DNA of 64,000 nt from Rhizobium oryzihabitans (GTDB lineage Bacteria > Pseudomonadota > Alphaproteobacteria > Rhizobiales > Rhizobiaceae): positions 992,001 through 1,056,000 of the forward strand of contig NZ_CP048635.1 in assembly GCF_010669145.1 (NCBI RefSeq). Direction: 5' to 3'. Each line of letters starts with the position of its first letter. Within the stretch, counting starts at the first letter, position 1. The notes beneath the pieces are model-generated. The model did no database searches. It saw only the letters and a list, made by a program, of their open reading frames with translations, and had not been told where the DNA came from. The translations under genes were made by a program, and so were the position numbers. This document shows, piece by piece, positions 41,474 to 57,904 of the stretch.

Positions 41474-42367
41474 TCAATTAGCCGCTGCGCCGCGGGTGAT
41501 GACCTTGCCGAGCGCCGCCACCAGCTTGTCGAGCATGAAGCCGACAACGCCGATGTAAGCGAGCGCCACGATGATGTCGGGCAGGCGCGAGGAGTTCCAC
41601 GCATCCCAGATGAAGAAACCGATGCCGACGCCACCGGTCAGCATTTCAGCCGCCACGATGGCAAGCCAGGAAAGGCCGATGCCGATGCGCAGGCCGGTGA
41701 AGATGTAAGGAGCGGCCGATGGCAGCATGATCTTGAAGAAGAATTCGATCTGGTTGAGCCGCAGCACCTGCGCGACATTTCGGTAATCCTGCGGAATATT
41801 GCGCACGCCGACTGCGGTATTGATGATGACCGGCCAGATGGAGGTGATGAAGATCACGAAAATGGCCGACAGGTTGCTGTCCTGAAAGGCAGCGAGCGAA
41901 AGCGGCAGCCAGGCAAGCGGCGGCACGGTGCGCAGCACCTGGAAGATCGGATCGAGACCGCGCATGGCCCAGACCGACTGGCCGATCACCGCACCGAGGA
42001 TGATGCCGGCAATGGCGGCGAGGCCGAAACCGTAAGCTACACGCTCCAGCGAGACCAACACACGCAGGCCGAGGCCGATATCCTGCGAACCGTTATGGAA
42101 GAACGGCGATACGATGAGATCGTAGCTCTCCTCGAAGACCTGGCTCGGGGGCGGCAGCGATGAGCCGGGGGCGGAACAGAGAAGCTGCCAGATACCGAGC
42201 AGCACGGCGAGGACGATGAACGGCGGTATGATGTTACGGGCCGCCGCCGCGCCCCATTTGCGCAGATCGATCCGCGAGACGGATTTCGGCGCCAGTGCCA
42301 CGACGTTTGCCTTCTGTGCCACCGGTTGCTGCGGCTCTTCTTTGAATTTTCGGGCCAATGCGGACAT
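41474..42367 (-). CDS. nrtB: nitrate ABC transporter permease
   Basis: A 297-residue permease with about six spans after a hydrophilic N-terminus of about 35 residues. It has the EAA-like loop typical of the nitrate/taurine/sulfonate permease class (NIPQDYRNVAQVLRLNQIEF). It is encoded between the binding protein and ATPase genes and forms the nitrate channel as a homodimer. Confidence 0.92.
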   Translation of the reverse strand: MSALARKFKEEPQQPVAQKANVVALAPKSVSRIDLRKWGAAAARNIIPPFIVLAVLLGIWQLLCSAPGSSLPPPSQVFEESYDLIVSPFFHNGSQDIGLGLRVLVSLERVAYGFGLAAIAGIILGAVIGQSVWAMRGLDPIFQVLRTVPPLAWLPLSLAAFQDSNLSAIFVIFITSIWPVIINTAVGVRNIPQDYRNVAQVLRLNQIEFFFKIMLPSAAPYIFTGLRIGIGLSWLAIVAAEMLTGGVGIGFFIWDAWNSSRLPDIIVALAYIGVVGFMLDKLVAALGKVITRGAAAN

Positions 42368-42403
42368 GGACGTTTCCTCTTGATTTCGGTTGCGGTCTGG
42401 GGC

Positions 42404-42465
42404 TCGCCCCTCATCCGGTCTTCAGTCGCGCCGGTTGGGCAGCGCATCTGGCGGATGAGGGGCGA
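42404..42465 (-). repeat. inverted repeat after the nitrate-binding-protein gene
   Basis: A perfect 14-bp stem TCGCCCCTCATCCG (42404-42417) / CGGATGAGGGGCGA (42452-42465) in the 115-base gap between nrtA and nrtB. It should fold in the operon mRNA directly 3' of the nrtA coding region. Confidence 0.65.
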
Positions 42466-42482
42466 TACCCCGGGTCTCCTCC

Positions 42483-43781
42483 TCAGGAGGCCGCCTTGAT
42501 GGACAGGCTTTCGAGATAGGCGGATGGATTTTCAGGATCGAAGACCTTGCCGTCGAAGAAGGTTTCCTTGCCACGCGAGGTGGAGGCGGGAAGATCGGCA
42601 ACGCCGAGATCCTTGGCCGCCGCGCGCCAGATATCCTCACGGTTCACCTTTTCCACCAGCGCCTTCACATCCGTATCGGATGCGAATTTGCCCCAGCGGA
42701 TGTTTTCCGCGATGAACCAGCTGTCATGGCTGCGGAAAGGATAGGAGGCGTGGTCCTGCCAGAACTTCATCTGCAGGCCGGTATTTTCGAGAACGCGGCC
42801 GTTGCCGTAATTGATATTGCCCTTCAGGCGGCCAAGCACATCCTTCGGCGGCACGTTGAACCATTGGCGCTTGCCAAGGATGGAGGACATTTCTTCCTTG
42901 TTCGCCATCTCATCGCACCATTGCTGCGCCTCCATCACGGCCATCAGCAGCGCCTTGGTGGCGTTCGGGTTCTTTTCCACCCAGTCCGCACGCATGCCGA
43001 GCGCCTTTTCCGGATGCCCCTTCCAGAGCTCTCCGGTGGTACAGGCTGTGAAGCCTATGCCCTGATTGACCAGCTGCTCGTTCCAGGGTTCGCCTACACA
43101 GAAGACGTCCATATTGCCGACTTTCATGTTGGCAACCATCTGCGGCGGCGGAACGACGATGGTGGAGACGTCCTTGTCCGGATCGATGCCGCCGGCAGCC
43201 AGCCAGTAGCGGATCCAGAGATCATGCGTGCCGCCGGGGAAGGTCATCGCGGCCTTGATTTCCTTGCCCTCGGCCTTCTTTTTCTCGAAAGCCGCCTTCA
43301 ATTTGGAAGCATCGAGCTGAACGCCGGTTTCGGCATATTCCCTGGCGACGGAAATGCCCTGGCTGTCGAGGTTGAGGCGGGCGAGGATGGCCATCGGCAC
43401 CGGCACATTGTTCTGGGTCACCTTGCCGGTATGCATGAGATAGGGCATCGGCGTCAGAATATGCGCGCCATCGATGCCGTTCGAGGCGCCGCCGAGCACG
43501 AGATTGTCGCGCGTCGCACCCCAGGAGGCCTGCTTCAGAACCTCGACATCCGGCATACCGTGTTTGGCGAACAGGCCCTTTTCCGCCGCAATGATGAGCG
43601 GGGCGGCATCGGTCAGCGCGATAAAGCCGATTTTTGCGCCTTTCACCTCGGGCTCAGCAGTGGCTGCGAAAGCACCGGACGGAAAGGCCACACGCACGGC
43701 GGTGACAAGCGCTGCGGTGGCTGTCGTCTTCAGTATCGTGCGGCGGCTGACATCGCCCGAGAATATCTTTTTCATTCGCAT
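42483..43781 (-). CDS. nrtA: nitrate-binding protein of ABC transporter (NrtA/NasF)
   Basis: A 432-residue periplasmic binding protein. The N-terminal twin-arginine signal is clear (SRRTILKTTATAALVTAV starting at about residue 12). The mature part has the NrtA/CmpA segments IGFIALTDAAPLIIAAEKGL and GTHDLWIRYWLAAGGIDPD. It is the first gene of the nrt-nir-nas-cysG operon. A sigma-54 promoter about 200 bases upstream and a structured leader point to nitrogen control plus NasT antitermination. ATG 43779-43781 or 43773-43775 are both possible. Confidence 0.92.
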   Translation of the reverse strand: MRMKKIFSGDVSRRTILKTTATAALVTAVRVAFPSGAFAATAEPEVKGAKIGFIALTDAAPLIIAAEKGLFAKHGMPDVEVLKQASWGATRDNLVLGGASNGIDGAHILTPMPYLMHTGKVTQNNVPVPMAILARLNLDSQGISVAREYAETGVQLDASKLKAAFEKKKAEGKEIKAAMTFPGGTHDLWIRYWLAAGGIDPDKDVSTIVVPPPQMVANMKVGNMDVFCVGEPWNEQLVNQGIGFTACTTGELWKGHPEKALGMRADWVEKNPNATKALLMAVMEAQQWCDEMANKEEMSSILGKRQWFNVPPKDVLGRLKGNINYGNGRVLENTGLQMKFWQDHASYPFRSHDSWFIAENIRWGKFASDTDVKALVEKVNREDIWRAAAKDLGVADLPASTSRGKETFFDGKVFDPENPSAYLESLSIKAAS

Positions 43782-43971
43782 GTTCCCCTTATTGGGCCAC
43801 CTCTGCGGGTGACGTTTTCGCTTGCGAAAAAACCTGAAAATAAAAAAACGCCGCTCGGTGTTTGCGCCTGCGGAACGGGAGGTGTTCCGGGCAGCAAAAC
43901 CTTGCGACGTCTATGTCTTTGAAAGCGCCTATGCCGCGCCCTGCTCGCACCGATCGCCGTTGACCGGAGCA
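43782..43971 (-). promoter_or_regulatory. structured leader of the nitrate operon, candidate NasT antitermination target
   Basis: Between the sigma-54 start and nrtA lies about 190 bases of leader. On the minus strand it can form a 14-pair hairpin (43898-43861, arms TTTGC-GCC-CGGAAC type with small bulges), followed 12 bases later by a T7 run (43848-43842). A smaller hairpin TTTTCGC/GCGAAAA is at 43830-43815. With NasT encoded next door this suggests attenuation by termination. The exact ANTAR hexaloop pair was not resolved by eye. Confidence 0.5.
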
Positions 43972-43980
43972 AATAGGAAG

Positions 43981-43997
43981 AAGCAAAAGGCATGCCA
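43981..43997 (-). promoter_or_regulatory. sigma-54 (RpoN) promoter of the nitrate operon
   Basis: Minus strand TGGCATGCCTTTTGCTT fits TGGCAYG-N4-TTGCW, with GG and GC exactly ten bases apart. Transcription would begin near 43971. NtrC-type enhancer sites were looked for in 44010-44154 but none was convincing. Confidence 0.8.
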
Positions 43998-44154
43998 GTT
44001 TATGGATTCAAGAATATACTGTTGAAAAACAATGATAATTCTTGGAATTCAGGCAGTTGATCAAATTTTAATCAGCATCATTTTTGTCTGCTGTTTGTGC
44101 AAACAAGAAAGGTTCGCGCTTGAAATTTGCGCAGCTTTCAAGGCCTGACGCCAA
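43998..44154. other. intergenic region between nasS and the nitrate promoter
   Basis: AT-rich DNA without a supported gene. It would hold the enhancer sites for the sigma-54 promoter if they exist here. Short open frames on the plus strand overlapping nasS are antisense shadows. Confidence 0.5.
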
Positions 44155-45447
44155 TCACGTCTCCCCGGCAGGCGGTGAAAACGGCGCGGATGTTCGCACG
44201 GAAAAGCCGTTTACATATCCCGCAATGTCGGCAGGATCGAAAACGAGGCCGTCCACGAAACGGTCCCCCTCTTCCTGCCCTTCAATGCGGATATCGGCAT
44301 CGCCGGGCGCATTGGTGTCTCCCAGTGCTACCCGATAAATATCCGGCCGATAGGCGGACAGCGCGGCTTCCACGCCCGCTTGCGAGAACTCCGCCTGCCC
44401 CCAGCGGATCATCTGGCTGTAAATCCACAATGCCTGGCTCCGGCGCGGATAGTTGGCATGGCCGCCGTGGAAGATGAAATATTTGTCGATCACCCGGCGG
44501 TTGCCCTGGCTGTCGATTGAGAATTCGCCGGCGAGCACATGGCGGATGATGCTTTGCGGCGCGCCGATATAGCGGGGATCGGCGAGCGCCCGGCTCAGTT
44601 CGTCGTGATTTTCCGAAAGGTCACACCAGCGCGCTGCCGCATCAAGCGCCGTCAGCAGCCGGCTGACCGTTTCCTGCTGGCTTTCGGCCCATTGGGGCCG
44701 CATGCCGATGACCTTTTCTGGCGCAGAAGGCCACAGATCCTGCTTGGCCGCAACGATCCTGCCGACACCGCGCTCGGCGGCGACGATGTTCCACGGCGCG
44801 CCGACGCAGAAACCGTCGATGGCTCCTGCGGCGAGCGCATCCGACGTTAATGGCGGCGGCACGACCACCAGCTTGACGTCATGATCGGGGTGAATGCCGC
44901 CAGCAGCGAGCCAATAGCGAAATTCGTAATTGTGCGACGAAAACGGATAGGTCATGCCAAGTGTCGGGGGTGCTTCGCCCCGCGCCCGCATATCATCGAG
45001 CACCTGCTTCAACGCCTTGGCATTTTCGAGCGCTCCCGCCGTTTCAGATAGACCCGTCAACGCCTTCATTCGCGCAAAAAGCCGGGTCGAAAGCGTGATG
45101 GCATTGCCGCCGCGCCCGAGTGAAAAGGGCGTGATCGTCGGCGAAGGGTTGGAGCCGAGCCCCAGCATGGAAGCAACGGGCATTGGCGAGAGCATATGAG
45201 CGATATCGAATTGCCGGAAGGCCAGCCTGTCACGCACATTCGCCCAGGACACATCCTTGACGAGATCGAGCGTCAGGCCTTCGCGGGCGGCGAAACCGAA
45301 TTCGGCCGCCGCGATCAGCACGGACGCATCGACAAGGGGAATAAAACCGGCGCGCAGGACCTTCTGCCGGTCGCTGCCCACGATTGCGGGTGCACCAGCT
45401 TGTGTCATTCCACTTTTTGATCCGGCCGTTTTTTCCGGTGCCGCCAT
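44155..45447 (-). CDS. nasS: NasS, cytoplasmic nitrate/nitrite sensor (NrtA-like without signal peptide)
   Basis: A 430-residue member of the NrtA/CmpA binding-protein family. It lacks any signal sequence: the N-terminus is hydrophilic (MAAPEKTAGSKSGM) and runs straight to LRAGFIPLVDASVLIAAAEF. The ATG at 45445-45447 has GAGGAG upstream. A cytoplasmic NrtA homologue next to an ANTAR regulator is the NasS-NasT arrangement: NasS holds NasT until nitrate or nitrite binds. It lies 37 bases downstream of nasT. Confidence 0.88.
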   Translation of the reverse strand: MAAPEKTAGSKSGMTQAGAPAIVGSDRQKVLRAGFIPLVDASVLIAAAEFGFAAREGLTLDLVKDVSWANVRDRLAFRQFDIAHMLSPMPVASMLGLGSNPSPTITPFSLGRGGNAITLSTRLFARMKALTGLSETAGALENAKALKQVLDDMRARGEAPPTLGMTYPFSSHNYEFRYWLAAGGIHPDHDVKLVVVPPPLTSDALAAGAIDGFCVGAPWNIVAAERGVGRIVAAKQDLWPSAPEKVIGMRPQWAESQQETVSRLLTALDAAARWCDLSENHDELSRALADPRYIGAPQSIIRHVLAGEFSIDSQGNRRVIDKYFIFHGGHANYPRRSQALWIYSQMIRWGQAEFSQAGVEAALSAYRPDIYRVALGDTNAPGDADIRIEGQEEGDRFVDGLVFDPADIAGYVNGFSVRTSAPFSPPAGET

Positions 45448-45484
45448 ATCATGCACTCCTCGACTGTCCAACCGGCGGGGTTCG

Positions 45485-46072
45485 TCACATCAACAGACCC
45501 GCTGCGGTGACCACGCTTTGCGCGATCTCGGATATTTTCTTTTTCTCGTTCATTGCCGTTTGCCGCAAAAGCGCAAAGGCCTGCTCTTCGGAAAGGCCGC
45601 GCATCTTCATCAGGATGCCCTTGGCGCGCTCGATGACCTTGCGTTCCTCCAGCGCCGATTTGGCGTCGGCAAGCTCCCGCTGCAGGCGGCTGAAAGCATT
45701 GAAGCGGCTGACCGCCATATCGAGAATGGGTTTGACCCGCTCTTTCTTCAGCCCGTCGACGACATAGGCGGAAACCCCCGCCTCGACAGCTGCCTCGATG
45801 GAGGCCGTGTCGGAGCGATCAACGAACATGGCGATCGGCCGGCCGACCGTACGAGTGAGCTGGAACAGATGCTCCATCATGTCGCGGTTGGGATTTTCAA
45901 GATCGATGAAGATGACGTCGGGCTGCAGCGTCTCGATGGTGCGCGCCACGCCCTGCACCTCATGGATGACCGTGACGCGTTGATATCCGGCCTCGCGCAG
46001 CCCCTCCTCGATGATCGAGGCGCGGATCGCGTTTTCGTCAATAACGAGAATGGTCAGGTCGCGAAGCGTCAT
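45485..46072 (-). CDS. nasT: NasT, ANTAR-domain response regulator/antiterminator
   Basis: A 195-residue protein starting at the ATG 46070-46072 (LRDLTILVIDENAIRASIIE). An N-terminal pseudo-receiver domain is followed by a coiled-coil segment (about residues 120-150, FSRLQRELADAKSALEER) and a C-terminal ANTAR domain (KVIERAKGILMKMRGLSEEQ, then AFALLRQTAM). ANTAR proteins bind paired hexaloop hairpins in leader RNA and prevent termination. The likely target is the nrtA leader at 43782-43971. Cotranscription with nasS is likely. Confidence 0.9.
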   Translation of the reverse strand: MTLRDLTILVIDENAIRASIIEEGLREAGYQRVTVIHEVQGVARTIETLQPDVIFIDLENPNRDMMEHLFQLTRTVGRPIAMFVDRSDTASIEAAVEAGVSAYVVDGLKKERVKPILDMAVSRFNAFSRLQRELADAKSALEERKVIERAKGILMKMRGLSEEQAFALLRQTAMNEKKKISEIAQSVVTAAGLLM

Positions 46073-46173
46073 GGCAGCATTGATGACGCAGCGCAGCAAA
46101 CTTGGCAATCGGCAGCGGATGCAAAAATGAGGCGGAGCGACAATGGAGGCTGTTGCCCTCCCCGCCAGAGATG

Positions 46174-46839
46174 TCAGGAAGCGTGTTCTACCGCGCGTTC
46201 AAGCGCCTTCAAGACCGTGCGCTCGGAAAGATTGAGATAGATTTCCATCTCGTCGCTCGCCTCAACCGCCTTGCCCTCTTCCATCAGAGACAGGATCTTG
46301 CTGTTCATATCGACGAAGGGAGAATGGAGCTGTTCGGGATCTTTCAGCAGGCCGAAACAAAGCCGGAGTTCGGCGGCGATGCGCTCGTAAAAATCGCTGA
46401 GACGGGCGCTGTCGAGAAGATCGACCACGGCGGCGTGGAACTTCATGTTGGCGCTGCCCACACCCAGCCAGTCCGCCTCTTCACGCTTGACCTTTGCATC
46501 CTCGACCGCCGCGCGCATTACCCGGATCGCCGAATGCTTGTGCCATGCCTGGCGCAGGGCACCGCATTCCACCATACGTCGCACGCGGTAAATATCGATT
46601 ACGGAGGACATGGTGGGAACGGCGACAAAAACGCCGCGATTGGCCTCATGACGCAACAGGCCATCCTTCGTCAGAAGACGGAAGGCTTCGCGCAGGGAAT
46701 TGCGGGAGACATCGAAACGTTCGCTGAAGGCTGCTTCCGAAAGGCGTTGCCCCGGCATCAGCTCACCGGAGATCAGCAAGGTGCGTATACCCTTCGCCAA
46801 TCGATCCGCAAGCGGAAGACCTTCTATCGTTTCCGTCAT
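46174..46839 (-). CDS. GntR-family (FCD/FadR type) transcriptional regulator
   Basis: A 221-residue regulator. The ATG at 46837-46839 follows AAGGAAAGA. The winged helix (LSEAAFSERFDVSRNSLREA at about residues 33-52) is followed by an all-helical FCD effector domain with metal-ligand-like residues (IYRVRRMVECGALRQ; FHAAVVDLLDSARL). It is divergent from the NRAMP-pxpA-DUF1445-pxpBC-carboxylase operon, whose promoter overlaps a TTGTTGAACAA palindrome. It is therefore the likely local repressor of that operon, responding to an organic acid. Confidence 0.9.
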   Translation of the reverse strand: MTETIEGLPLADRLAKGIRTLLISGELMPGQRLSEAAFSERFDVSRNSLREAFRLLTKDGLLRHEANRGVFVAVPTMSSVIDIYRVRRMVECGALRQAWHKHSAIRVMRAAVEDAKVKREEADWLGVGSANMKFHAAVVDLLDSARLSDFYERIAAELRLCFGLLKDPEQLHSPFVDMNSKILSLMEEGKAVEASDEMEIYLNLSERTVLKALERAVEHAS

Positions 46840-47009
46840 GGCGCTTCTTTCCTTAAGGCAATGCAGCATCGGGAATTCCGTGACAGGCAAGTTCGGACAC
46901 GGCATGATTGCCCATAGCACAAAGCTTTAGCAAAGCACGAAAAAAACATGATTAAATCCTGCCCACGACGTCCAACAAATAGACAAAATGAAAGAACGAT
47001 AACTTTATA

Positions 47010-47051
47010 TTGTTGAACAAAGTTGACAATTTCGCAGAACACGACAAGATC
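47010..47051 (+). promoter_or_regulatory. promoter and GntR-type operator of the carboxylase operon
   Basis: TTGTTGAACAA (47010-47020) is a perfect 11-base palindrome of the TTGT-N3-ACAA kind bound by FCD-type GntR proteins. It abuts a -35 TTGACA (47023-47028), a 17-base spacer and AAGATC (47046-47051). Binding there would block RNA polymerase. Confidence 0.55.
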
Positions 47052-47103
47052 GGGGCATAAAGCATCCGCGAGGGGCGGATTGCGACAGGAGCGGAGAAAA
47101 TCC

Positions 47104-48345
47104 ATGGAGCAAAAAAAGCTCACCCCGACTGCCGATATGAAAATGTCAAAACGCGCATCCCTGGTGGGAGCGATCTTCCTGATGGCGACATCCGCCATCG
47201 GTCCCGGCTTCATCACCCAGACGGCGACATTCACCACCCAGCTTGGCGCAGCCTTCGCCTTCGGCATTCTTGCCTCCATCGTCATCGACTTCGTCGTCCA
47301 GCTTAACATCTGGCGTATCGTGACGCTGACGCGCATGCGTGCATCCGATATTGCGAATGCCGCCATTCCCGGCGCCGGCTATCTGCTCGCCATTCTCGTC
47401 ATCATCGGCGGGCTGTTCTTCAATATCGGTAATATCGGCGGCACCGGCCTTGGCCTGAACGCCATTTTCGGGCTCGATCCGAAAATCGGCGGCGCCATCA
47501 GCGCGATATTTTCCATCGCCATCTTCGTTTCCAAGCGGGCAGGTCTCGCCGTTGACCGCTTCATCATCTTCGCCGGCATCCTGATGATCGTGCTGACGCT
47601 TTATGTGGCATTCGTTTCCGCGCCGCCGGTGGGCGACGCCTTCCGCCAGACTTTCCTGCCGGATACGATCAATTTCGCAACCATCACCACCATCGTCGGC
47701 GGCACCGTTGGCGGCTACATCACCTATTCCGGCGCACACCGCCTGCTGGACCGGGGAATGGTCGGCATTGAAAATCTTCCGGCCGTCAACCGCGCCGCTC
47801 TGACCGGCATCGCCGTCACGGGCATCATGCGTTACGTGCTGTTTCTCGCGATTCTCGGCGTTGTCGCCAGCGGCGTCATCATCGATACGTCGGGCCAGGC
47901 CGCAAACCCCGCCGCGCAGGCCTTCCGTTCGGCTGCCGGCGATCTCGGCTTCCGCCTCTTCGGCATCATCTTCTGGGCAGCGGCCATCACCAGCGTCATC
48001 GGCGCAGCCTATACTTCCGTTTCATTCCTGCCCGTCTTCAAGCAGGATATGAGCGAGCGTGCCCGCAATATGGCGACGGTCATTTTCATCGCAGTCTCGC
48101 TCGTCTGCTACCTGCTGATCACCACGCCGCCCGCCGCCATGCTGGTCTTCGTCGGCGGCCTCAACGGCCTCATCCTGCCGATCGGCCTCAGCATCTTCCT
48201 GTTTGCGGCGTGGAAACGCGAAGACCTGATGGGTGGCTACCGCTATCCGCGCGTCCTGCTGTTGCTCGGCGTTCTGACTTGCGCATTGACCTGGTACATG
48301 GGCTACAAGTCCGCTGGCACCATCTTCGGCCTGCTCGGCCTGTAA
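47104..48345 (+). CDS. NRAMP-family transporter lacking the metal-binding motifs (YcsG-like)
   Basis: A 413-residue membrane protein with about eleven hydrophobic segments. It begins at the ATG 47104 behind GGAGCGGAG. The fold signature GPGF in TM1 (residues 33-36) is present. The DPGN metal-ligand motif of true NRAMP proteins is replaced by TTQL (about 44-47), and the TM6 MPH motif by GGY within TVGGYITYSG (201-210). It heads an operon with pxpA, DUF1445, pxpBC and a biotin carboxylase, like ycsG next to ycsF in Bacillus subtilis. I infer that it imports the organic substrate of this pathway rather than a divalent metal. Confidence 0.87.
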   Translation: MEQKKLTPTADMKMSKRASLVGAIFLMATSAIGPGFITQTATFTTQLGAAFAFGILASIVIDFVVQLNIWRIVTLTRMRASDIANAAIPGAGYLLAILVIIGGLFFNIGNIGGTGLGLNAIFGLDPKIGGAISAIFSIAIFVSKRAGLAVDRFIIFAGILMIVLTLYVAFVSAPPVGDAFRQTFLPDTINFATITTIVGGTVGGYITYSGAHRLLDRGMVGIENLPAVNRAALTGIAVTGIMRYVLFLAILGVVASGVIIDTSGQAANPAAQAFRSAAGDLGFRLFGIIFWAAAITSVIGAAYTSVSFLPVFKQDMSERARNMATVIFIAVSLVCYLLITTPPAAMLVFVGGLNGLILPIGLSIFLFAAWKREDLMGGYRYPRVLLLLGVLTCALTWYMGYKSAGTIFGLLGL

Positions 48346-48362
48346 TAAACTAGTGTTTTTAC

Positions 48363-48410
48363 GCATTTTCCGGACGCAAAACCGCTACGCACTTTTGCTG
48401 GAAATGCTCT
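48363..48410. repeat. short interspersed palindromic repeat
   Basis: GCATTTTCCGGACGCAAAACCG (first part) and the imperfect reverse ending GGAAATGC (48400-48407) make a hairpin between the NRAMP gene and pxpA. The sequence with its flank ATGCTCTAA is a motif I recognise as recurrent in Agrobacterium intergenic DNA. It is inside the operon and should be transcribed. Confidence 0.6.
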
Positions 48411-48424
48411 AAAGGGAGGCAAAC

Positions 48425-49192
48425 ATGGCCGCTATCGATCTCAACAGCGATCTTGGCGAAAGTTACGGTGCGTGGAGCATGGGAGATGATGAGGCGATGC
48501 TCGCCATCGTTTCCAGCGCCAACATCGCCTGCGGATTTCATGCCGGCGACCCGGCCGGCATCTACCGCACCGTCAAGGCCGCCGCCGAAAAAGGCGTGGT
48601 CGTCGGCGCCCATGTCTCCTATCCGGACCGCGTCGGCTTCGGCCGCCGCGATCTGGACGTGACTTCCGAAGAGCTGATCGCCGATGTCATCTACCAGATC
48701 GGCGCGCTGAAAGGCGTTGCCGCCGCTGCGGGAACCACGGTGCGCTACGTCAAGCCGCACGGCGCGCTTTACAACCGCATCGCCAACGACGCAAAACAGG
48801 GGCAGGCGGTCATCGACGGCATCAAGGCCGTTGATCCCTCGCTGGTACTGATGGGTCTTGCCAATGCGCCCATCCTGGATCTTGCCCGCAAGGCAGGCCT
48901 TGCCGTCGTTGCCGAAGCCTTCGCGGATCGCGCCTATACGCCGCAAGGCCAGCTCGTCTCACGCAGGGAAGCCGGCGCCGTTCTTCACGACGCCGCCAAA
49001 ATCGCTGACAGGATGGTGCGGCTTGCCCGCGAAGGAACGCTGGAAGCGATCGACGGCAGCATCGTAAAAATCGAGGCGCAATCCATCTGCGTGCATGGCG
49101 ACAGCCCCGGTGCAGTCGCCATTGCCCAGGAAATCCGACGCCGTTTCGAAGCCGAAGGTATCGATATCCGCTCTTTTGCCTCCATTCTCTAA
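48425..49192 (+). CDS. pxpA: 5-oxoprolinase subunit A (LamB/YcsF family)
   Basis: A 255-residue protein of the LamB/YcsF family. Diagnostic motifs are [12 protein letters not shown] (residues 4-15), [12 protein letters not shown] (about 36-47), [13 protein letters not shown] and VKPHGALYN. PxpA with PxpB and PxpC hydrolyses 5-oxoproline to glutamate using ATP. A GGGAGG site precedes the ATG. The gene lies with pxpBC and an additional biotin carboxylase, which is not needed by the known PxpABC enzyme, so the reaction here may differ. Confidence 0.9.
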
Positions 49193-49204
49193 AAGGAGCG
49201 GCCA

Positions 49205-50014
49205 GTGACCATACCGACATCCTTTCTCAATCACACCGACGCGGAAGCCGCGCGAAAGGCCCGCGTCACCTATCGCGGCGGCCTCGTTGAGCCCACCTCC
49301 GGCGTCGCGCCTGGCTTCACGCAGGCCAACATGATCGTGCTGCCGCGCGACTGGGCCTTCGATTTCCTGCTTTATGCGCAGCGCAATCCAAAACCCTGCC
49401 CGGTGCTTGATGTTTCCGATCCCGGTTCGCCCACCACGCTTCTGGCTCCCGGTGCCGATCTTAGAACCGACCTGCCGCTCTACCGTATCTGGCGAGACGG
49501 CATGCTTGCCGAGGAAACGCCGGATGCAACCGCGGCCTGGGCGGAGCGCGACGATCTCGTCGCCTTTCTGATAGGCTGCAGCTTCACCTTCGAAACGCCA
49601 ATGGTGGAAGCTGGGATCGAAATCCGCCACATGACCGACAAGAGTAATGTTCCGATGTATCTGACCAACCGGCCGTGCCGTCCGGCGGGTCGGTTGAAAG
49701 GCAATATGGTCGTTTCCATGCGGCCGATCCCGGCTTCGCGGGTCGCCGATGCCGCGACCATTTCGGGGCGTTTTCCGGCCGTTCACGGGTCGCCCGTGCA
49801 CGTCGGCGCGCCGGAAGAGATCGGCATCACCGATCTTGCGAAACCCGACTTCGGTGACGCGGTACGGATCGAGCCCGGCGAGGTTCCGGTGTTCTGGGCC
49901 TGCGGCGTCACTCCACAGGCCGCCGTCATGGCGTCCGGTGTGCCTTTTGCGATCACCCATGCGCCCGGACACATGTTCATCACCGACATTCCCGATTCAG
50001 CCTATCACGCGTGA
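49205..50014 (+). CDS. DUF1445 (YcsI) family putative hydro-lyase
   Basis: A 269-residue member of the D-glutamate cyclase-like DUF1445 family. Conserved segments are [19 protein letters not shown] (about residues 25-43), [24 protein letters not shown] and [12 protein letters not shown]. Members are annotated as hydro-lyases and one class cyclises D-glutamate to 5-oxoproline, which would make or consume the substrate of PxpABC. Its occurrence between pxpA and pxpBC matches ycsF-ycsG-ycsI-kipI-kipA of Bacillus. The stop codon lies 4 bases before the next start. Confidence 0.88.
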
Positions 50015-50018
50015 GGAT

Positions 50019-51617
50019 ATGATGCGTTTTCTCCCCGTCAGCCTCACAACCATTCTCGTTGAACTTGCCGATCTTGACGAAACGCTGGCGCTTTTCGCCT
50101 CGCTTCAGAACGATCCGGTCGAGGGCATCGAAGAGACGGTTCCGGCTGCCCGCACCCTGATGATCCGATTCCGTCCCGAGAAGATCGGCGCGCAAGCACT
50201 GGTCGCAAGGCTTTCCAGCCGCGATCTCTCGGCAAAAATCGCGCCTTCGGACAATCTCGTGGAAATCCCCGTCCACTATAATGGCGAAGATCTCACCGAC
50301 GTTGCCGAACTGACCGGCATGAGCGTCGATGAGGTCATCCGTCGCCACACCGAAAGTGAATTCACCGTGGCCTTTTGCGGTTTCGCGCCCGGCTTCGGTT
50401 ATCTGGTCGGCGGCGATCCGGCCCTTCACGTGCCGCGCCGGCAAAGCCCGCGCACCCGCATTCCGGCGGGTTCGGTGGCGCTCGCCGGCGCATTCAGCGG
50501 CGTCTATCCGCAAAACAGCCCGGGCGGCTGGCAGATCATCGGCACCACGCCGGTGAAGATGTGGGATATCGACCGCGATCCCGGCGCGCTTTTCCAGCCG
50601 GGTTATCGGGTGCGCTTCTTCGATATGGACAAGTCCGGCAGGACAGTCGATATTTCTGCCTCGGCACCGCGAACCTCCCAGCCGGATGCAGCAAGGGAAG
50701 GCCCGCATTTCGAGGTGCTCGCAGCACCCATGCCAGCAATATTTCAGGATCTCGGCCGCTTCGGCCAGACCGGACAGGGCGTATCGGCCTCCGGCGCGCT
50801 GGATCGCGGTGCTTTTAACGCCGCAAACCGCATTGTCGGCAATCCGGTCAACATGCCGTGTCTCGAACTCACGCTTGGCGGTTTTTCCTTCAAGAGCACA
50901 AGCCGCGCGGTCATTGGCATTGCCGGTGCACCCTGCCCCGTCACCATCAAGACGGCGGATGGCAGTTTCACAGTGCAGACCCATGTTCCCGTCTCACTCG
51001 AGCCCGGCGATGTCGTCACTTTCGGTCAGCCGCAAAAGGGCATGCGCTGTTATCTTTCCGTCCGCGGCGGGTTCGATGTCGAACCCGTGCTCGGCAGCTT
51101 CGCGACGGACACGCTCGCCATCGTCGGGCCAGAAAGCGTGGCCGCGGGCACGATACTGCCGCTGAAAGGTGAAAAGGCGGGGCTCTCCAGTGTATCGATC
51201 AACGAGGTTCCGGCCTTCGAACCGCCGGCAACCGGTGAAGTCGTGACACTGGACGTCGTTCTCGGCCCCCGCACTGACTGGTTTACGCAGAAGGGTATCG
51301 AGACCCTGACCAGCCAGCTCTGGCAGGTCACCCCGCAATCGAACCGCGTCGGCATCCGCCTTGCCGGCGACGTGCCGGTGGAACGTAAGGACAGCGCCGA
51401 ATTGCCGAGCGAGGGCACCGCAACAGGGGCGATTCAGATTCCCCATAGCGGCCAGCCCGTCCTCTTCCTTGCCGACCATCCACTGACCGGCGGTTATCCC
51501 GTCATCGGCGCGGTTGCCGAATATCATCTCGATCTTGCCGGGCAAATCCCCGTCAATGCCAAAATCAAATTCCGCCCGATCGGCCCCTTCGCCGAAATCG
51601 CGGCCAAAAACAAATAA
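50019..51617 (+). CDS. pxpBC: fused 5-oxoprolinase subunits B and C (KipI-KipA carboxyltransferase family)
   Basis: A 532-residue fusion of two families. Residues about 1-215 are KipI/PxpB (AHS1: [34 protein letters not shown]). Residues about 225-530 are KipA/PxpC (AHS2: [42 protein letters not shown] region). The same two domains form the carboxyltransferase of urea carboxylase. Two ATGs stand in tandem (50019, 50022) after AGGA. A gene for biotin carboxylase plus biotin carrier follows after 17 bases, so a complete biotin-dependent carboxylase could be assembled. Confidence 0.9.
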
Positions 51618-51634
51618 TTCCGAGGAGAAGAGCG

Positions 51635-53365
51635 ATGAAAAAAGTGCTGATTGCCAATCGTGGCGAGATCGCGGTGCGGATCATCCGCGCATGCCGCGAT
51701 TACGGCCTGCAATCGGTTGCCGTTTATGCCGACCCCGATCAGGATGCTCTTTTCGTACGGCTGGCGGATGAGGCCTTTGCGCTGGAGGGCGTGCGCCCCG
51801 CCGAGACCTATCTCGATATCGCCAAGCTGATCGCGATTGCCAAACGCGCCGGTGCGGATGCCGTGCATCCCGGTTACGGTTTTTTGTCCGAACGCGCCGA
51901 ATTTGCGCGAGCCGTTATCGATGCCGGCCTTAGCTGGATCGGCCCAGACCCCCATGTCATCGAAGCATTGGGCGACAAGGTCGAAGCGCGGCGTATCGCC
52001 ACCGGTGTTGGCGCGCCGCTGGTCGCCGGCAGTGACGGCCCGGTCTCTACCGCTGCCGAAGTCACCGCCTTTGCCGAAAAACACGGCCTGCCCGTCGCCA
52101 TCAAGGCGGCGCATGGTGGCGGTGGACGTGGCCTGAAGGTTGCGTGGAGGATGGAAGAGATCGCCGATCTCTACGAATCCGCCGTTCGCGAGGCGACAGC
52201 CGCTTTCGGCCGTGGCGAGTGTTTTCTCGAACGGTTCCTCGACCGGCCCCGCCACATCGAAGCGCAGGTTCTGGCGGACAAGCATGGCAATGTGCTCGTG
52301 CTAGGCACCCGCGACTGCTCGCTGCAGCGCCGTAACCAGAAGCTGATCGAGGAGGCTCCGGCCCCGTTCCTGTCTGCCGAACAGCGGCAGAAAATTCACG
52401 ATGCCGCAAAGGCTATCTGTGCTGCGGCAGGTTATTCCGGTGCCGGCACCGTCGAATTCCTGCTCGGTGTCGATGGCACGATTTCCTTCCTGGAGGTTAA
52501 TACGCGCCTGCAGGTGGAACATCCCGTCACCGAAGAAACCACCGGCATCGATCTCGTTGTCGAGCAGTTCCGCATCGCCGAAGGCCACAAGCTGCGGGTT
52601 CTTGAAACGCCGGAACCGCGCGGCCACTCGATGGAATTCCGCATCAATGCCGAAGATCCCGGCCGGGGTTTCCTGCCCACACCCGGCTCGATCTCGGTCT
52701 TCGACGCGCCCTCCGGTCCCGGTATTCGCATGGATAGCGGCGTCGTCAGCGGCTCCAGCGTGCCCGGCGTGTTCGACTCGCTGATGGCGAAGCTCATCGT
52801 CACGGGTGCGGACCGCGATCAGGTTCTGCGCCGCGCCCGCCGTGCGCTTAAGGAATTCCGTATCGAAGGCATCGCCACGGTCCTGCCGTTCCATCGCGCC
52901 GCAATCGAGACGGAGGACTTCATCGGCACGGACGGATTCAAGGTTCACACCCGCTGGATCGAGACCGATTTCGGCGCCATGCCGGATGCGATGGAGCGCC
53001 CGGCACCGGTCGAGGACCCTTCCATCACAAGGACCTTTCTGGAAATCGACGGCAAGCGCGTCTCGGTCGGTCTGCCGAGCCTGCTGCTATCCGGTCTTGG
53101 CGCCGCCAGCGGCGGCAACGCTTCTGCGCCCGGCGCTGCGGTCAAAGAGAAGGAAGGCGAAATCACCGCCCCGGTTTCCGGCACCCTGCAATCCTTCAAG
53201 ATAAAGGATGGTGAAACCGTTTCCGAAGGCGATCTGCTGGCGGTCATGGAAGCCATGAAGATGGAGACGCAAATCGTCGCCACCACGGCCGGCAAGGTGC
53301 GCCTGATCGTCAAGGAAGGCGATTATCTGCAGGCTGGCGCAGCACTTCTGGAAATCACCGGCTAA
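51635..53365 (+). CDS. biotin carboxylase with C-terminal biotin carrier domain
   Basis: A 576-residue protein. The biotin carboxylase part (about residues 1-450) starts with [20 protein letters not shown], has the ATP-grasp glycine loop [12 protein letters not shown] (about 158-169) and ends in the carboxylase C domain. A biotinyl domain follows (about 505-576) with the lysine K542 in EAMKMET. The arrangement is that of the alpha subunit of acyl-CoA or urea-type carboxylases. No acyl-CoA carboxyltransferase gene is near; the only partner in the operon is PxpBC, related to the urea-carboxylase carboxyltransferase. The 17-base gap and GAGGAGA site show cotranscription. Confidence 0.92.
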
Positions 53366-53499
53366 CGCGAAGACAGCCGAACCGCCAACCAACTCAGGGA
53401 AGGCGGCACCCACAATCGATGCTCGGTCGGCACCGGCGGCGGAACCCTTTCGCCGCCGGTCCGTTTATGGCGCGACCTGCTAACCATCGTGAGGGAAAT

Positions 53500-54987
53500 A
53501 TGGCCGGACGCACCTTGCTTCAGTTCTTCCATTGGTATTATCCGGACGGAGGGAAATTATGGAGCGAGGTGGGCGAAAAAGCCGAAAGCCTTGCGAAAAT
53601 GGGAATCACCGATGTCTGGCTGCCGCCCGCTTACAAGGGCGCCGCCGGCGGTTATTCGGTGGGTTACGACACCTACGATCTCTTTGATCTCGGCGAGTTC
53701 GACCAGAAGGGAACCGTCGCCACCAAATATGGCGATCGCGCCGCCCTCGAGCAGGCAGGACGGACGCTGAAGGAAAACGGCATCCGCGTCATTCACGATG
53801 TCGTTCTCAATCACAAGATGGGTGCCGACGAAAAGGAAAAGGTGCGGGTCCGCCGCGTCAATCCCGAGGACCGCACCGAGATAGACGACGAGGATTTCCA
53901 GGCACTTGCCTATACCAAGTTCACCTTTCCCGGACGAAACGGCAAATATTCCAAATTCATCTGGGATCTGAAGTGCTTCAGCGGTGTCGACCACATCGAG
54001 GAACCGACGGAGGACGGCATTTTCCGCCTCGTCAACGAATATGGCGATGGCGAATGGAACGAGGAAGTCGATCAGGAAAACGGCAATTTCGATTACCTGA
54101 TGGGTGCGGACGTCGAATTCAGAAACAGGGCGGTCTATGAGGAACTCAAATATTGGGGCCGTTGGCTTGCCGAGCAGGTTCAGGTCGACGGGTTCCGTCT
54201 CGACGCCGCCAAACACATCCCGGCCTGGTTCTTCCGCGACTGGGTCGGCCATATGCGCGACACGGTCGATCCCGATCTTTTCGTCGTGGCGGAATATTGG
54301 CACCCCGACATAGAGGCGCTGAAAAGCTATCTTGATCTGGTCGACAAGCAGCTGATGCTTTTCGATGTCGCCCTTCACCACCGTTTCCACGACGCCTCCA
54401 AACAGGGCGGCGATTTCGACATGCGGACCATCTTCGAAGGGTCGCTGCTTTCGGCTGTTCCCGATCACGCCGTCACGCTGGTCGACAATCACGACACACA
54501 GCCGCTGCAATCGCTGGAAGCGCCGGTGGAGCCGTGGTTCAAGCCCCTGGCCTATGCGATCATTCTGCTGCGCGAAGAGGGTGTTCCCTGCGTCTTCTAT
54601 CCCGATCTGTTCGGCACGAGCTACACCGACACCGGCAATGACGGCAACGAACATCAGATCGACATGCCGGCGATCGAATGCCTGCCGAGGCTCGTCGAGG
54701 CACGCAGCCGCTTCGGCAACGGCGCCCAGACGGATATTCTCGACGATCCGAGCTGCATCGCCTTTATCCGCCACGGCACCGCCGATGAGCCGGGTTGCGT
54801 GGTGGTGATGTCGAATGGCGAGCCGGCGGAGAAGCAGATTGATCTGGGCCCCGAACATGCGGGAGCGGCATGGCGCGACTTTCTCGGCCACCGTGACGAG
54901 CGGATTACCCTTGATGAGAGCGGCAAGGGCGTGTTCCCCACCAATGGCGGCAGCGTCAGCGTCTGGGTTCCTGCAGGTCCCGAGTGA
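53500..54987 (+). CDS. amyA: cytoplasmic alpha-amylase (GH13)
   Basis: A 495-residue GH13 enzyme without signal peptide, like the cytoplasmic AmyA of enterics. The start ATG 53500 follows GAGGGAA. The four conserved regions are [15 protein letters not shown] (nucleophile D235), VVAEYW (acid E265) and LVDNHDT (transition-state D332). It hydrolyses alpha-1,4-glucans such as internal maltodextrin or glycogen fragments. It stands alone 134 bases after the carboxylase gene and is convergent with soxR. Confidence 0.93.
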
Positions 54988-55016
54988 AACACAACCGCTT
55001 CAACCAACGACACCGT

Positions 55017-55472
55017 TCATTCGGCGGATACGAGACGGCGCGGGCCAGCGCCGTCATCGGCCAGAACATCGTTCGGATTTCGTAAGGGACAGTCATCCAG
55101 TGAAAGGCAACCGCAACCGATGCAGCCGGTAAGCTGGTCGCGCAGCATAATCAGGCTGTTGATGCGAAGCTGTAGCATTTCCCGCCAGGACTGCGAAAAC
55201 CTGCGCCAGTCAGCGGCCGTCGCCACCCGATCCTGCGGCAAATCCGCCATCGCATCCCTGATGATCCCAAGCTGGATACCGGCCCGCTGGGCGATGCGGA
55301 TAATCGCGATGCGCCGCAGCACGGCGCGATGATAACGGCGCTGGTTGCCGCTGGTACGCCAGCCTTCTATCAATCCTTTCGCCTCATAAAAATGGACGGT
55401 GGAAACGGCGACGCCGCTGCGACGCGCAACCTCGCCAACCGTCAGGCTGTGTTTAAGTATGGTATTTTCCAT
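55017..55472 (-). CDS. soxR: redox-sensitive MerR-family activator SoxR
   Basis: A 151-residue MerR protein. The winged helix ([20 protein letters not shown] at about residues 12-31) is followed by a dimerisation helix and the 2Fe-2S cluster motif [12 protein letters not shown], with cysteines at 117, 120, 122 and 128, exactly the SoxR pattern. The ATG at 55470-55472 is preceded by GGAG; the longer frame upstream has no reason to be used. Oxidation of the cluster by redox-cycling compounds turns on its target promoters. A perfect SoxR box with a 19-base promoter spacer lies directly upstream, so the gene is probably autoregulated. Confidence 0.94.
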
Positions 55473-55537
55473 GCCGGCTCCGGTTTTCTGAACGATCTCC
55501 GCTCTTGAAAAACGCGGAAATACATTAAAGAGCAGCC

Positions 55538-55568
55538 GGTATAATTCCTCAACCATAGTTGAGGTCAA
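55538..55568 (-). promoter_or_regulatory. soxR promoter with SoxR box
   Basis: Minus strand TTGACC (55568-55563), a 19-base spacer and TATACC (55543-55538). Within the spacer, CCTCAAC-CATA-GTTGAGG (55547-55564) matches the 18-base SoxR consensus. The stretched 19-base spacing is characteristic of MerR-family promoters that are activated by DNA untwisting. Confidence 0.85.
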
Positions 55569-55582
55569 TAGGCCGGATGGCT

Positions 55583-55611
55583 AAAAAAAGAGGCGCCCGA
55601 TGGGCGCCTCT
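55583..55611 (-). terminator. terminator of the TonB-dependent receptor gene
   Basis: A 10-bp perfect stem AGAGGCGCCC/GGGCGCCTCT (55589-55598 / 55602-55611) with loop GAT and an A7 run on the plus strand, read leftward as a GC hairpin plus U-tract. It lies 37 bases after the receptor stop and isolates it from soxR. Confidence 0.9.
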
Positions 55612-55648
55612 GAAATCTTGGATATGGCCGGTATCAGAATTTTGCTTA

Positions 55649-57757
55649 TCAGAATTTTGCTGTCATGCTGATCCAGAAACGGCGGCCTTCCATGACCGTG
55701 TTGAAATCATCGGTGCCGACATCCTTGTCGAAGACATTGTAAACGGCAGCATTGAGATCGACATTTTCGGCGACAGCATATTTCGCGCCAATATCAAGCG
55801 TGGTGTAGGCCTCATATTTGCGCCCGGCCTTGCCGTTGATCGTCACCGGCGTACCATTCGTGCCGATGCGCGGGCCGGCATTGATTTCCGATCCGTGATA
55901 ATTCACCGAGGCCCAGGCTTCCAGCCCGTCTATCGGCGTTACCCAGTCACCCCGCAGATTGGCCATGTGCTCGGGCGTGCGCGCCAGCGGGAAACCTTCG
56001 TAGTCGCCAGTCTTCTGTTCGGAATGCGTGTAGGTATAGTTGCCGCGCAGCGTCAGCTCCGGCGTCGCATACCAGGTTGCCGTCAGTTCCACACCCTGAA
56101 TGACCGCATCATCGATATTGTAGTTATACCAGAGGCGATAATTGCGATCCTCGCTCCAGCGGGCCGGCGTTCCATCCGGATTGAGCACCAGCGCGTTGGA
56201 GATCTTGTCCTTGAAATCCGTGTAGAAATAGGTGGCGCCAAGAGCGACATCGCCATTATCCCAGAGCGCGGCCACTTCGTAGCTCGTGCTCTTTTCCGCT
56301 TCCAGACCGGGATCGCCGATGATCACGCCGCAGGTGCCGCTCGGTCCATAGGTGCAACCGCCACCGCCCGTCGTATAGGCATAACCCGGCGCGATCTGGC
56401 GGATTTCAGGCGCGCGGAAACCGGTGGAAATACCACCCTTGATCGTCAGCTCTTCCGTCGCGCTCCACACACCGTAAAGGCGCGGGCTGAAATGGTTGCC
56501 GTATTTTTCATGGTTATCGAGACGAAGACCGCCCGTCAGCGCGAAATTATCGACGATGCGCCATTCATCCTCGACAAAGAGCGCCCATTGCGTCGCCGAG
56601 AAGGTTTCATCAACACTGGTGCGCCGCCCCGGGTTCTGGTCCGTCAGCCGCGCCTCGAAATATTGACCGCCCGTGACCAGCGTGTGGTTGCCGAACAATT
56701 CGAAGGGCGTGGTGAACTTGCCATCAAGGACGGTGTTGCGAACCTCCGGTGAGCGCGGATTTTCCGTGACGCGTCCCGTGCGGGTATTTCTGGTGAAATT
56801 GGTGCGCTCGGCCCATTCCTGCTGGAAGGAGAATTCGGATGTGGTCGGTCCCCAGCGGCCGGTATGCGACAACGACCAATGGTCGCGCGTATTGGTATTG
56901 TAGGTGCCGTTGGCGTCGGTCGCCGCCAGCGTCTCGCCGGGCTCGGCGCTGCGACGCAGCCGCGTCTTGCCGCCTTCGAGATAAATGTCGTGGTCTTCGT
57001 TCGGCGTAAAGGTCAGACGGCCGTTGAAATCATATTCCTTGGCGCCGGTGGTGCCGCTCAGAATACGGTCTTCGCCGCGGTTGAAGCCCCTGCCCCAGAT
57101 CTGAAGGCCCAGCTGGTCCGTCAGGATCGGCCCGTTGGCATACCAGGACACCTGGCCGCTATTGCCGAATTTGGAATGCTGCTGAACCGTTCCCTCGGTG
57201 GTGACGGAACCGGACCAGACATCGCCGACCTTGCGGGTGATGATGTTGATGACGCCGCCCATGGCGTCGGAACCGTAAAGAGACGACATCGGGCCGCGCA
57301 CGACCTCGATACGCTCGATGGCCGAAACCGGCGGCACGAAGCTCTGTTCGAAGCCGGAATTACCATTCGTGCGGGCATCGCGGGTGCTCTGCCGTTTGCC
57401 GTCAACAAGCACCAGCGTGTAGGCGCCGGGCAATCCGCGAATGAAAATGTCCTTCTCATTGGCAATGCCGGTGACGGATACACCCTGAACTTCGCGCAAG
57501 GCGTCGGTCAGATCGCGATAGGATCCCTTTTCCAGATCCTCCCGCGTCACAACCGTGATGCTGGCGGGAGCGTCTTTCACATTCTGCTCGAAGCCTGATG
57601 CGGTGACCACGATCTGCTGCAGGACGGTGGTTCCCTCGGACGCCTGCTGTGCGAAAGCGGGCAATGCGGCGCTGAGCGCCGTTCCTGCCAGTGCCGCCGA
57701 AAGGCCAGCCTTTATTATCGTCGCGGCCATATCCCGGCCGCGGTACTTCAATTCCAT
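55649..57757 (-). CDS. TonB-dependent outer-membrane receptor (siderophore/FepA-like)
   Basis: An outer-membrane receptor of about 702 residues. A long signal peptide ends near ALPAFAQQ. The TonB-box-like QQIVVTAS follows, then the plug domain (ITVVTREDLEKGSYRDLTDA; IFIRGLPGAYTLVLVDGKRQ; IERIEVVRGPMSSLYGSDAMG). A 22-strand barrel ends with the terminal aromatic residue F. The closest functional class is catecholate siderophore or colicin I-type receptors (FepA/CirA). Several in-frame starts exist; the ATG at 57755-57757 follows GGGGGC. No siderophore genes adjoin it, so the ligand is unknown. Confidence 0.9.
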   Translation of the reverse strand: MELKYRGRDMAATIIKAGLSAALAGTALSAALPAFAQQASEGTTVLQQIVVTASGFEQNVKDAPASITVVTREDLEKGSYRDLTDALREVQGVSVTGIANEKDIFIRGLPGAYTLVLVDGKRQSTRDARTNGNSGFEQSFVPPVSAIERIEVVRGPMSSLYGSDAMGGVINIITRKVGDVWSGSVTTEGTVQQHSKFGNSGQVSWYANGPILTDQLGLQIWGRGFNRGEDRILSGTTGAKEYDFNGRLTFTPNEDHDIYLEGGKTRLRRSAEPGETLAATDANGTYNTNTRDHWSLSHTGRWGPTTSEFSFQQEWAERTNFTRNTRTGRVTENPRSPEVRNTVLDGKFTTPFELFGNHTLVTGGQYFEARLTDQNPGRRTSVDETFSATQWALFVEDEWRIVDNFALTGGLRLDNHEKYGNHFSPRLYGVWSATEELTIKGGISTGFRAPEIRQIAPGYAYTTGGGGCTYGPSGTCGVIIGDPGLEAEKSTSYEVAALWDNGDVALGATYFYTDFKDKISNALVLNPDGTPARWSEDRNYRLWYNYNIDDAVIQGVELTATWYATPELTLRGNYTYTHSEQKTGDYEGFPLARTPEHMANLRGDWVTPIDGLEAWASVNYHGSEINAGPRIGTNGTPVTINGKAGRKYEAYTTLDIGAKYAVAENVDLNAAVYNVFDKDVGTDDFNTVMEGRRFWISMTAKF

Positions 57758-57904
57758 GTTACGCCCCCGCATTTAACTTGAGAATTTAACCCCACTTATT
57801 TAGGAGGGAGTGCAGGCGCAACGCGTTTGTTTTCGAACAGTTCTAAATTCCAGAAATTGCAAAAAGGGCTCCGCCATTCGGCAGCGGGGTAAAAAAACAG
57901 CAAG

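Follow-up and report, generated by a model that had tools for sequence, protein, structure and literature searches.

The operon that we describe here lies at positions 46174 to 53365 of a 64,000-nucleotide stretch of the Rhizobium oryzihabitans genome (NZ_CP048635.1, positions 992,001 to 1,056,000; hereafter the window), and its sequence suggests that it probably encodes a biotin-dependent form of 5-oxoprolinase, the enzyme that opens 5-oxoproline, the cyclic form of glutamate. It comprises genes for PxpA, a fused PxpB-PxpC (PxpBC), a DUF1445 protein, a biotin carboxylase (BC) with its own C-terminal biotin carrier domain (BC-BCCP), an NRAMP-family permease and a divergent GntR regulator (Table 1). 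Profile searches recovered all six genes with the identities given in the initial annotation, which had proposed that this set carboxylates a lactam or amide before PxpA acts. The prokaryotic 5-oxoprolinase PxpABC, encoded in B. subtilis by ycsF/kipI/kipA, was reportedly described by Niehaus et al. in 2017 as biotin-free. No report of a biotin-dependent 5-oxoprolinase was found among the matches listed in the open-access literature searched.

PxpBC and its biotin protein form one unit

A scan with the BC protein, one genome per species, shows how tightly the two genes are linked. Among the best 80 loci, all 40 proteobacterial ones (L001-L036, L038, L045, L047 and L053, by our locus handles), with BC domains 69-91% identical to that of the window, encode PxpB and PxpC immediately upstream of BC. 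PxpA is present in 38 of the 40 (the exceptions are L030, on a short contig, and L038), and a GntR homologue lies upstream in 34. The core of PxpA, PxpBC and BC recurs in Rhizobiales, Burkholderiales, Pseudomonas, Xenorhabdus/Photorhabdus, Cedecea and Paracoccus, accompanied by NRAMP and DUF1445 genes in only part of these recurrences. Eight actinobacterial loci with an AccA3-like BC (64-70% identical; L037, L039-L044 and L046) have no pxp or GntR genes in the stretch read. The other 32 loci have BC domains about 45-53% identical, and three of them, from haloarchaea (L057, L062 and L063), adjoin pxp genes.

The converse survey, starting from PxpC, gave the same picture. In Pseudomonadota, 135 of 299 genomes gave a match to PF02626 (CT_A_B), as did 27 of 119 in the actinobacterial phylum. 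We read 106 neighbourhoods from the former (among the matches listed, with frames under 1000 aa, urea carboxylase-sized frames and the two host copies being left out) and 30 from the latter. Window-type loci, by which we mean members of a BC-linked subclade of the PxpB+PxpC tree (23 sequences, support 0.998), numbered 13 in Pseudomonadota, all with BC-BCCP, and one in the actinobacterial phylum (L289), so that 14 of 14 window-type clusters found through PxpC carry BC. PxpB and PxpC are on a single chain in 53 window-type loci (the window included) and in L289, and are separate in L179.

The pair also occurs as a single protein. Using PxpBC and BC-BCCP joined end to end as the query, and scoring the 7999 candidates that had most words in common with it, we recovered nine protein clusters (P0001-P0009, 1115-1191 aa) that cover 97-100% of this query with 50-53% identity, among the best 120 of 376 matches. 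The domain order is CT_C_D, CT_A_B, BC, Biotin_lipoyl in the four of the nine that were checked with Pfam (P0001, P0002, P0005 and P0009); P0009 comes from a 1.5 Mb contig named Corynebacterium pacaense. All five sequences read at the linker (P0001, P0002, P0004, P0007 and P0009) have Met residues ahead of the BC part, and internal starts are therefore possible. A further fusion-like cluster, P0010 (1029 aa), was dropped: its CT_A_B end is missing and it resembles a frameshift.

Phylogeny and a solved structure point the same way. In a tree of 181 PxpB+PxpC sequences, the window falls in a 39-member clade (support 1.0) together with the pair in PDB entry 9yx5, and E. coli PxpBC lies outside it. 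That entry, released 2025-11-26, is titled 'Structure of the long chain acyl-CoA carboxylase complex from Mycobacterium smegmatis with MSMEG_0435-MSMEG_0436 bound', with chains named allophanate hydrolase subunits 1 and 2 and AccA3 subunit; judged by these chain names and the title, physical contact of a related PxpBC with a carboxylase complex is already in the PDB. Correspondingly, window-type BCs join actinobacterial AccA3-like BCs and the AccA3 of 9yx5 in the BC tree (65 sequences, one host gene being counted three times from different loci; support 0.97), apart from host AccC, PccA, MccA and pyruvate carboxylase, and the closest PDB relatives of BC-BCCP are mycobacterial AccA3 proteins (712-722 bits). 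Biotin use in the window-type clade may be ancestral or regained: one tree has the clade branch off ahead of the PxpBC proteins that have no BC (support about 0.91), the other has it arise among them (mixed support). An AlphaFold2 model of the window PxpBC (predicted local distance difference test score, pLDDT, 91) matched the folds of TTHA0988, MSMEG_0435/0436, E. coli YbgJK and the urea carboxylase carboxyltransferase; cupin and oxidase matches in these searches were treated as background. We found no paper describing 9yx5 among the matches listed in the open-access literature searched. MSMEG_0435 is unmentioned in PMC4347857, and the excerpt of PMC11001197 names it in an expression table only.

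Taken together, operon conservation, natural fusion, matching phylogeny and the solved complex of relatives show that PxpBC and BC-BCCP belong to one unit, as first supposed. The accompanying idea that such a module is special to this lineage did not survive, because BC genes adjoin pxp genes in other arrangements too (which we call types II and III, and others), and the BCs concerned branch elsewhere in the BC tree. The BC of the actinobacterial pxp clusters L265, L268 and L270, for example, sits on a separate branch.

BC-BCCP itself has the sequence features of a biotin-dependent carboxylase. Its BC domain matches E. coli AccC at 14 of the 15 active-site positions compared (His236 is replaced by Asn), and its carrier domain (PF00364) has the AMKM motif. 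A carboxyltransferase partner is provided by the genomic pairing and natural fusion with CT_C_D/CT_A_B, and the transfer itself is predicted. It is very improbable that PxpABC is here an ordinary ATP-dependent, biotin-free 5-oxoprolinase and BC-BCCP a mere neighbour serving an acyl-CoA carboxyltransferase elsewhere. BC-BCCP does resemble AccA3, an acyl-CoA carboxylase alpha subunit, and biotin-free PxpABC is said to be active; but the co-occurrence in 40 of 40 and 14 of 14 loci and the nine fusions rule out a chance neighbour, residues conserved in PxpBC without BC are absent from the window protein, and the host genome appears to have no spare acyl-CoA carboxyltransferase.

This last point addresses the concern, raised at the outset, that such an enzyme might be the sole partner of BC. 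The host genome has six BC matches and four acyl-CoA carboxyltransferase (PF01039) matches. Judging from frame size and location, genes like those for PccA/PccB and for MccA/MccB each lie together, matches of 339 and 306 aa fit AccA and AccD, paired with AccC, and a 1190-aa frame fits pyruvate carboxylase, so that no PF01039 match seems to be left over. Two BCs remain, those of the window and of a second pxp cluster, and their only carboxyltransferase-type neighbours are PxpBC proteins. The window BC may nonetheless share an acyl-CoA carboxyltransferase with other alpha subunits. The second cluster (L085:10291-15135, roughly 1 kb before position 1 of the window) is of a different kind and encodes AccB, AccC, a second Biotin_lipoyl protein whose motif, by eye, lacks the biotinylation Lys, PxpB, PxpC and PxpA.

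Residues that set the window PxpBC apart

The likeness of PxpBC to the carboxyltransferase of urea carboxylase, on which the initial annotation drew, holds in part: eight of ten departures from PxpBC without BC are common to both, and the general base of urea carboxylase is replaced. This base is Lys1605 of KlUA according to an excerpt of PMC5770610. Lys is found at the equivalent position, 140 in the window protein, in 26 of 26 urea carboxylases, in 20 of 20 type III-like sequences (12 from Pseudomonadota, five actinobacterial and three haloarchaeal), in L194 and in three of four BC-less chains with the urea carboxylase order. Arg takes its place in 23 of 23 window-type sequences, 16 of 16 actinobacterial relatives (9yx5 included), six of six type II and 79 of 79 without BC, as well as in E. 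coli, L186, L264 and L265/L268/L270. Position 464 (Ser versus Asp) splits similarly, if less strictly. A urea carboxylase active site in window-type PxpBC was therefore not upheld, both Lys and Asp being absent, and the carboxyltransferase chemistry cannot be read directly off urea carboxylase because the general-base Lys is Arg140. Nor is the urea carboxylase model TIGR02712 reached (PxpBC 153 and BC 508 bits, against a cut-off of 1303.85).

The shared departures come from a scan of alignment columns, in which a column counted as conserved when at most two residues cover 85% of PxpBC without BC (80 sequences, E. coli included) and as lost when this fell below 10%. Of 154 conserved columns, the window type together with its actinobacterial relatives has lost 10 and urea carboxylase 43, with eight lost in both; in the same scan type II lost six, of which urea carboxylase lacks two as well (p 0.54). 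A loss common to urea carboxylase, the type III-like sequences and the window type affects six columns. For five of them it holds in 32 held-out window-type loci, with F159, L366, R418 and P488 in 32 of 32 and V495 in 31, the remaining one being a gap. The sixth, column B127 (V130), passed the first scan and was dropped, as it is Ser in 11 of the 32. Gln at 159 is found in B. subtilis KipI and TTHA0988 as well. The window encodes PxpA, PxpB and PxpC homologues together, as a PxpABC 5-oxoprolinase would, and its PxpBC lacks all of Q159, K/R366, E/Q418, Q488 and K/R495. The protein also misses the NCBIfam equivalog cut-offs for PxpB (TIGR00370, 137.7 versus 145.55 bits) and PxpC (NF045499, 171 versus 500) and reaches the domain model TIGR00724 (242.7 versus 230.2 bits).

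We infer from these patterns that the five residues of PxpBC without BC may form an ATP site, that positions 159, 366, 418, 488 and 495 would lie on the co-substrate side and that Arg140 and Ser464 would lie on the substrate side. Our reading is that carboxybiotin would replace ATP as the activator in window-type PxpBC, because this protein, like urea carboxylase, is without the five residues yet keeps the two substrate-side residues of 5-oxoprolinase.

Substrate, mechanism and alternatives

The substrate is most likely 5-oxoproline itself, because the gene for pyroglutamyl peptidase (Pcp, PF01470), whose product is 5-oxoproline, sits in sister operons: it lies immediately before pxpA in the BC-linked operons L018 and L019 and was found by tblastn in nine of 55 window-type loci, eight of which also have DUF969 and DUF979. 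NRAMP genes occur in 23 and DUF1445 genes in 28 of the 55. At least one of these five accessory genes is present in 42 of 55 window-type loci, including eight of the 14 found by survey, although stretch lengths differ between the sets; the figures are 22 of 80 for loci without BC, one of 15 for actinobacterial relatives and four of five for other BC-linked loci, and tblastn of the stretches read found none in six type II or 20 type III-like loci. An excerpt of PMC13274462 reports that PxpT of C. glutamicum, an NRAMP-family protein, is required for 5-oxoproline uptake, and by analogy the window permease probably takes up 5-oxoproline. The same excerpt gives phosphorylation of 5-oxoproline by PxpBC as assumed.

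The new lactam or amide substrate suggested initially has accordingly lost ground to 5-oxoproline. A biotin-dependent carboxylase-hydrolase for another such compound (for example hydantoin, 2-pyrrolidone or an N-acyl amide) now seems rather unlikely, although all five accessory genes are missing from 13 of 55 window-type loci, transporters vary (MFS genes, of the major facilitator superfamily, in L025 and L013), the second host pxp cluster could do the 5-oxoproline work, and the host genome has no pyroglutamyl peptidase. Against it stand Pcp in the sister operons, the family of the permease, and Arg140 with Ser464, which is the state of PxpBC without BC, unlike that of urea carboxylase and type III.

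The biotin-dependent 5-oxoprolinase that we favour might work as follows. 5-Oxoproline would enter through the NRAMP permease, and the D-Glu_cyclase-family (DUF1445) protein, going by its family name, may supply 5-oxo-D-proline derived from D-glutamate. The BC domain, with its intact motifs, would use ATP and bicarbonate to form carboxybiotin on its own carrier domain. PxpBC, acting as carboxyltransferase, would pass the carboxyl group from carboxybiotin to the lactam, probably at the ring nitrogen. PxpA would then hydrolyse the activated ring to glutamate, with release of CO2. On balance we lean towards two mechanistic classes of PxpABC, one in which activation is by ATP in PxpBC, and one in which PxpBC is a true carboxyltransferase and carboxylation from biotin precedes PxpA. 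The second class would be found here and in Actinobacteria, where a shared AccA3 would be borrowed; residues 159, 366, 418, 488 and 495 would switch the co-substrate, and Arg140 and Ser464 would set the substrate.

Several observations weigh against this proposal. The general-base Lys of urea carboxylase and its partner Asp are Arg140 and Ser464 in the window, just as in PxpBC without BC. The overlap of eight in ten lost columns has a one-sided Fisher p of 6e-4, which is too favourable since the sequences are related. Five of six type II loci (the second host cluster included, which keeps four of the marker residues), L186 and L265/L268/L270 have a BC nearby and yet keep four or all five markers; BC adjacency alone is therefore no proof of a carboxybiotin mechanism, and the five marker columns may mean something else. 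'Without BC' means that none was found within 5 kb (L154, with a BC fragment at a contig end, was kept among these 80 loci), and some of these proteins could use a BC encoded elsewhere. In the wider 39-taxon clade, 15 actinobacterial members have no BC in the stretch read; they may borrow AccA3. In 9yx5, PxpBC on the acyl-CoA carboxylase complex is contact, not catalysis. Pcp is also present in nine of 80 loci without BC, at least about half as frequent as in the window type, and a whole-genome look at the host found neither pyroglutamyl peptidase nor Hydantoinase_B, the former absence bearing on the substrate.

It is also conceivable, if quite improbable, that BC-BCCP binds PxpBC without carboxylating the lactam, giving carboxyphosphate or regulating through bicarbonate or biotin supply, and that activation is still by phosphorylation. 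The missing urea carboxylase base would fit this, and an excerpt of PMC8453981 discusses how caprolactamase, an ATP-dependent lactamase of unrelated sequence, depends on bicarbonate although no carboxylation by it is known. The nearly intact BC active site and the biotin motif argue otherwise, as does the absence from the window PxpBC of the basic K/R366 and K/R495 of PxpBC without BC, residues that may serve phosphorylation.

If the biotin-dependent reading is true, 5-oxoprolinase would be linked to urea carboxylase by mechanism, with activation by carboxylation and not by ATP alone, and a lactam would be added to the substrates of biotin carboxylases. It would also hint at what PxpBC does on the mycobacterial acyl-CoA carboxylase complex. 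A natural biotin-coupled version, with its fusions and marker residues, would offer a direct handle on ring activation.

Surroundings of the operon and comparison with known systems

The five plus-strand genes of the operon are separated by intergenic gaps of 79, 12, 4 and 17 bp. The ATG of the permease at 47104 is the likely start, picked by eye from the preceding sequence.

Table 1. Genes of the operon and residues discussed in the text, in window coordinates
Feature	Coordinates	Strand	Remarks
GntR/FCD transcriptional regulator, divergent	46174-46920	-	PF00392 + PF07729
NRAMP-family permease	47104-48345	+	PF01566, E 4e-21; frame open from 47023
PxpA, lactamase-like subunit (LamB/YcsF)	48425-49192	+	PF03746, E 6e-102; NF003814, 380 bits (cut-off 226)
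D-Glu_cyclase / DUF1445 protein	49205-50014	+	PF07286, E 1e-67; NF003969, 412 bits (cut-off 324)
PxpB-PxpC fusion, carboxyltransferase-like subunit	50019-51617	+	CT_C_D, E 2e-66, and CT_A_B, E 2e-81, on a single chain
Arg140 of PxpBC	50436-50438	+	Aligned with the catalytic Lys of urea carboxylase (KlUA K1605)
Phe159 of PxpBC	50493-50495	+	PxpBC without BC: Gln; urea carboxylase: Tyr
Leu366 of PxpBC	51114-51116	+	PxpBC without BC: Lys/Arg; urea carboxylase: Leu
Arg418 of PxpBC	51270-51272	+	PxpBC without BC: Glu/Gln; urea carboxylase: mostly His
Ser464 of PxpBC	51408-51410	+	PxpBC without BC: Ser; urea carboxylase: Asp
Pro488 of PxpBC	51480-51482	+	PxpBC without BC: Gln; urea carboxylase: Pro
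Val495 of PxpBC	51501-51503	+	PxpBC without BC: Lys/Arg; urea carboxylase: Cys
Biotin carboxylase with C-terminal biotin carrier domain (BC-BCCP), AccA3-like	51635-53365	+	PF00289, PF02786, PF02785, PF00364
Lys542 of BC-BCCP, predicted biotinylated	53258-53260	+	Canonical AMKM motif

An alpha-amylase gene starts 53 bp beyond the BC-BCCP gene, and the stretch after the operon (53419-57772) also encodes a MerR regulator and, by eye, a TonB-dependent receptor-like protein. On the other side, the stretch adjoining the GntR gene (41474-46108) encodes two NMT1_2 proteins, an ANTAR response regulator and, by eye, a permease, which together look like a cluster for nitrogen-source uptake and regulation.

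Other BC-linked pxp clusters came to light in the same surveys. The type III-like and haloarchaeal ones (L142, L143, L145, L146, L147, L151, L152, L160, L162 and L164; L266, L269, L271 and L276; L057, L062 and L063) keep the urea carboxylase Lys and Asp and have none of the five accessory genes; they are possibly biotin-dependent amide carboxylases of another substrate. The type III members L144 and L149 have no BC in the stretch read. Actinobacterial L267, L274, L278 and L284 have both carboxyltransferase halves in the urea carboxylase order, with no BC on the chain or in the stretch read. Gene pairs resembling the carboxyltransferase halves of urea carboxylase were noted by Lombard and Moreira in 2011, without functional data in the excerpt of that paper (PMC3199775).

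Among known systems, the AccA3-type alpha subunit of actinobacterial acyl-CoA carboxylases has the same domain layout as the window BC-BCCP, and in the eight actinobacterial loci its BC domain is 64-70% identical to that of the window, where, in contrast, the gene directly follows that for PxpBC. The M. smegmatis complex 9yx5 likewise combines an AccA3-type BC-BCCP with a PxpBC from the clade to which the window protein belongs. It differs in that BC-BCCP is there a subunit of the acyl-CoA carboxylase complex, and no PxpA chain was matched in the entry.

Urea carboxylase, which is part of fungal urea amidolyase and also occurs separately in bacteria, has BC and CT_A_B/CT_C_D modules and a biotin domain in common with the window, and is without the same five marker residues. 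Its order is BC, CT_A_B, CT_C_D, with the carrier domain last on the chain, as against PxpB-PxpC-BC-BCCP in the natural fusions; its catalytic Lys and Asp are Arg and Ser in the window, and the window operon includes PxpA. PxpABC (E. coli ybgJKL) has in common with the window the PxpA, PxpB and PxpC homologues and the Arg140 and Ser464 state, and NRAMP and DUF1445 genes adjoin some of its clusters, as they do here. The window departs from it in the adjacent BC-BCCP, fused in relatives, in the joining of PxpB and PxpC on one chain and in the absence of the five marker residues.

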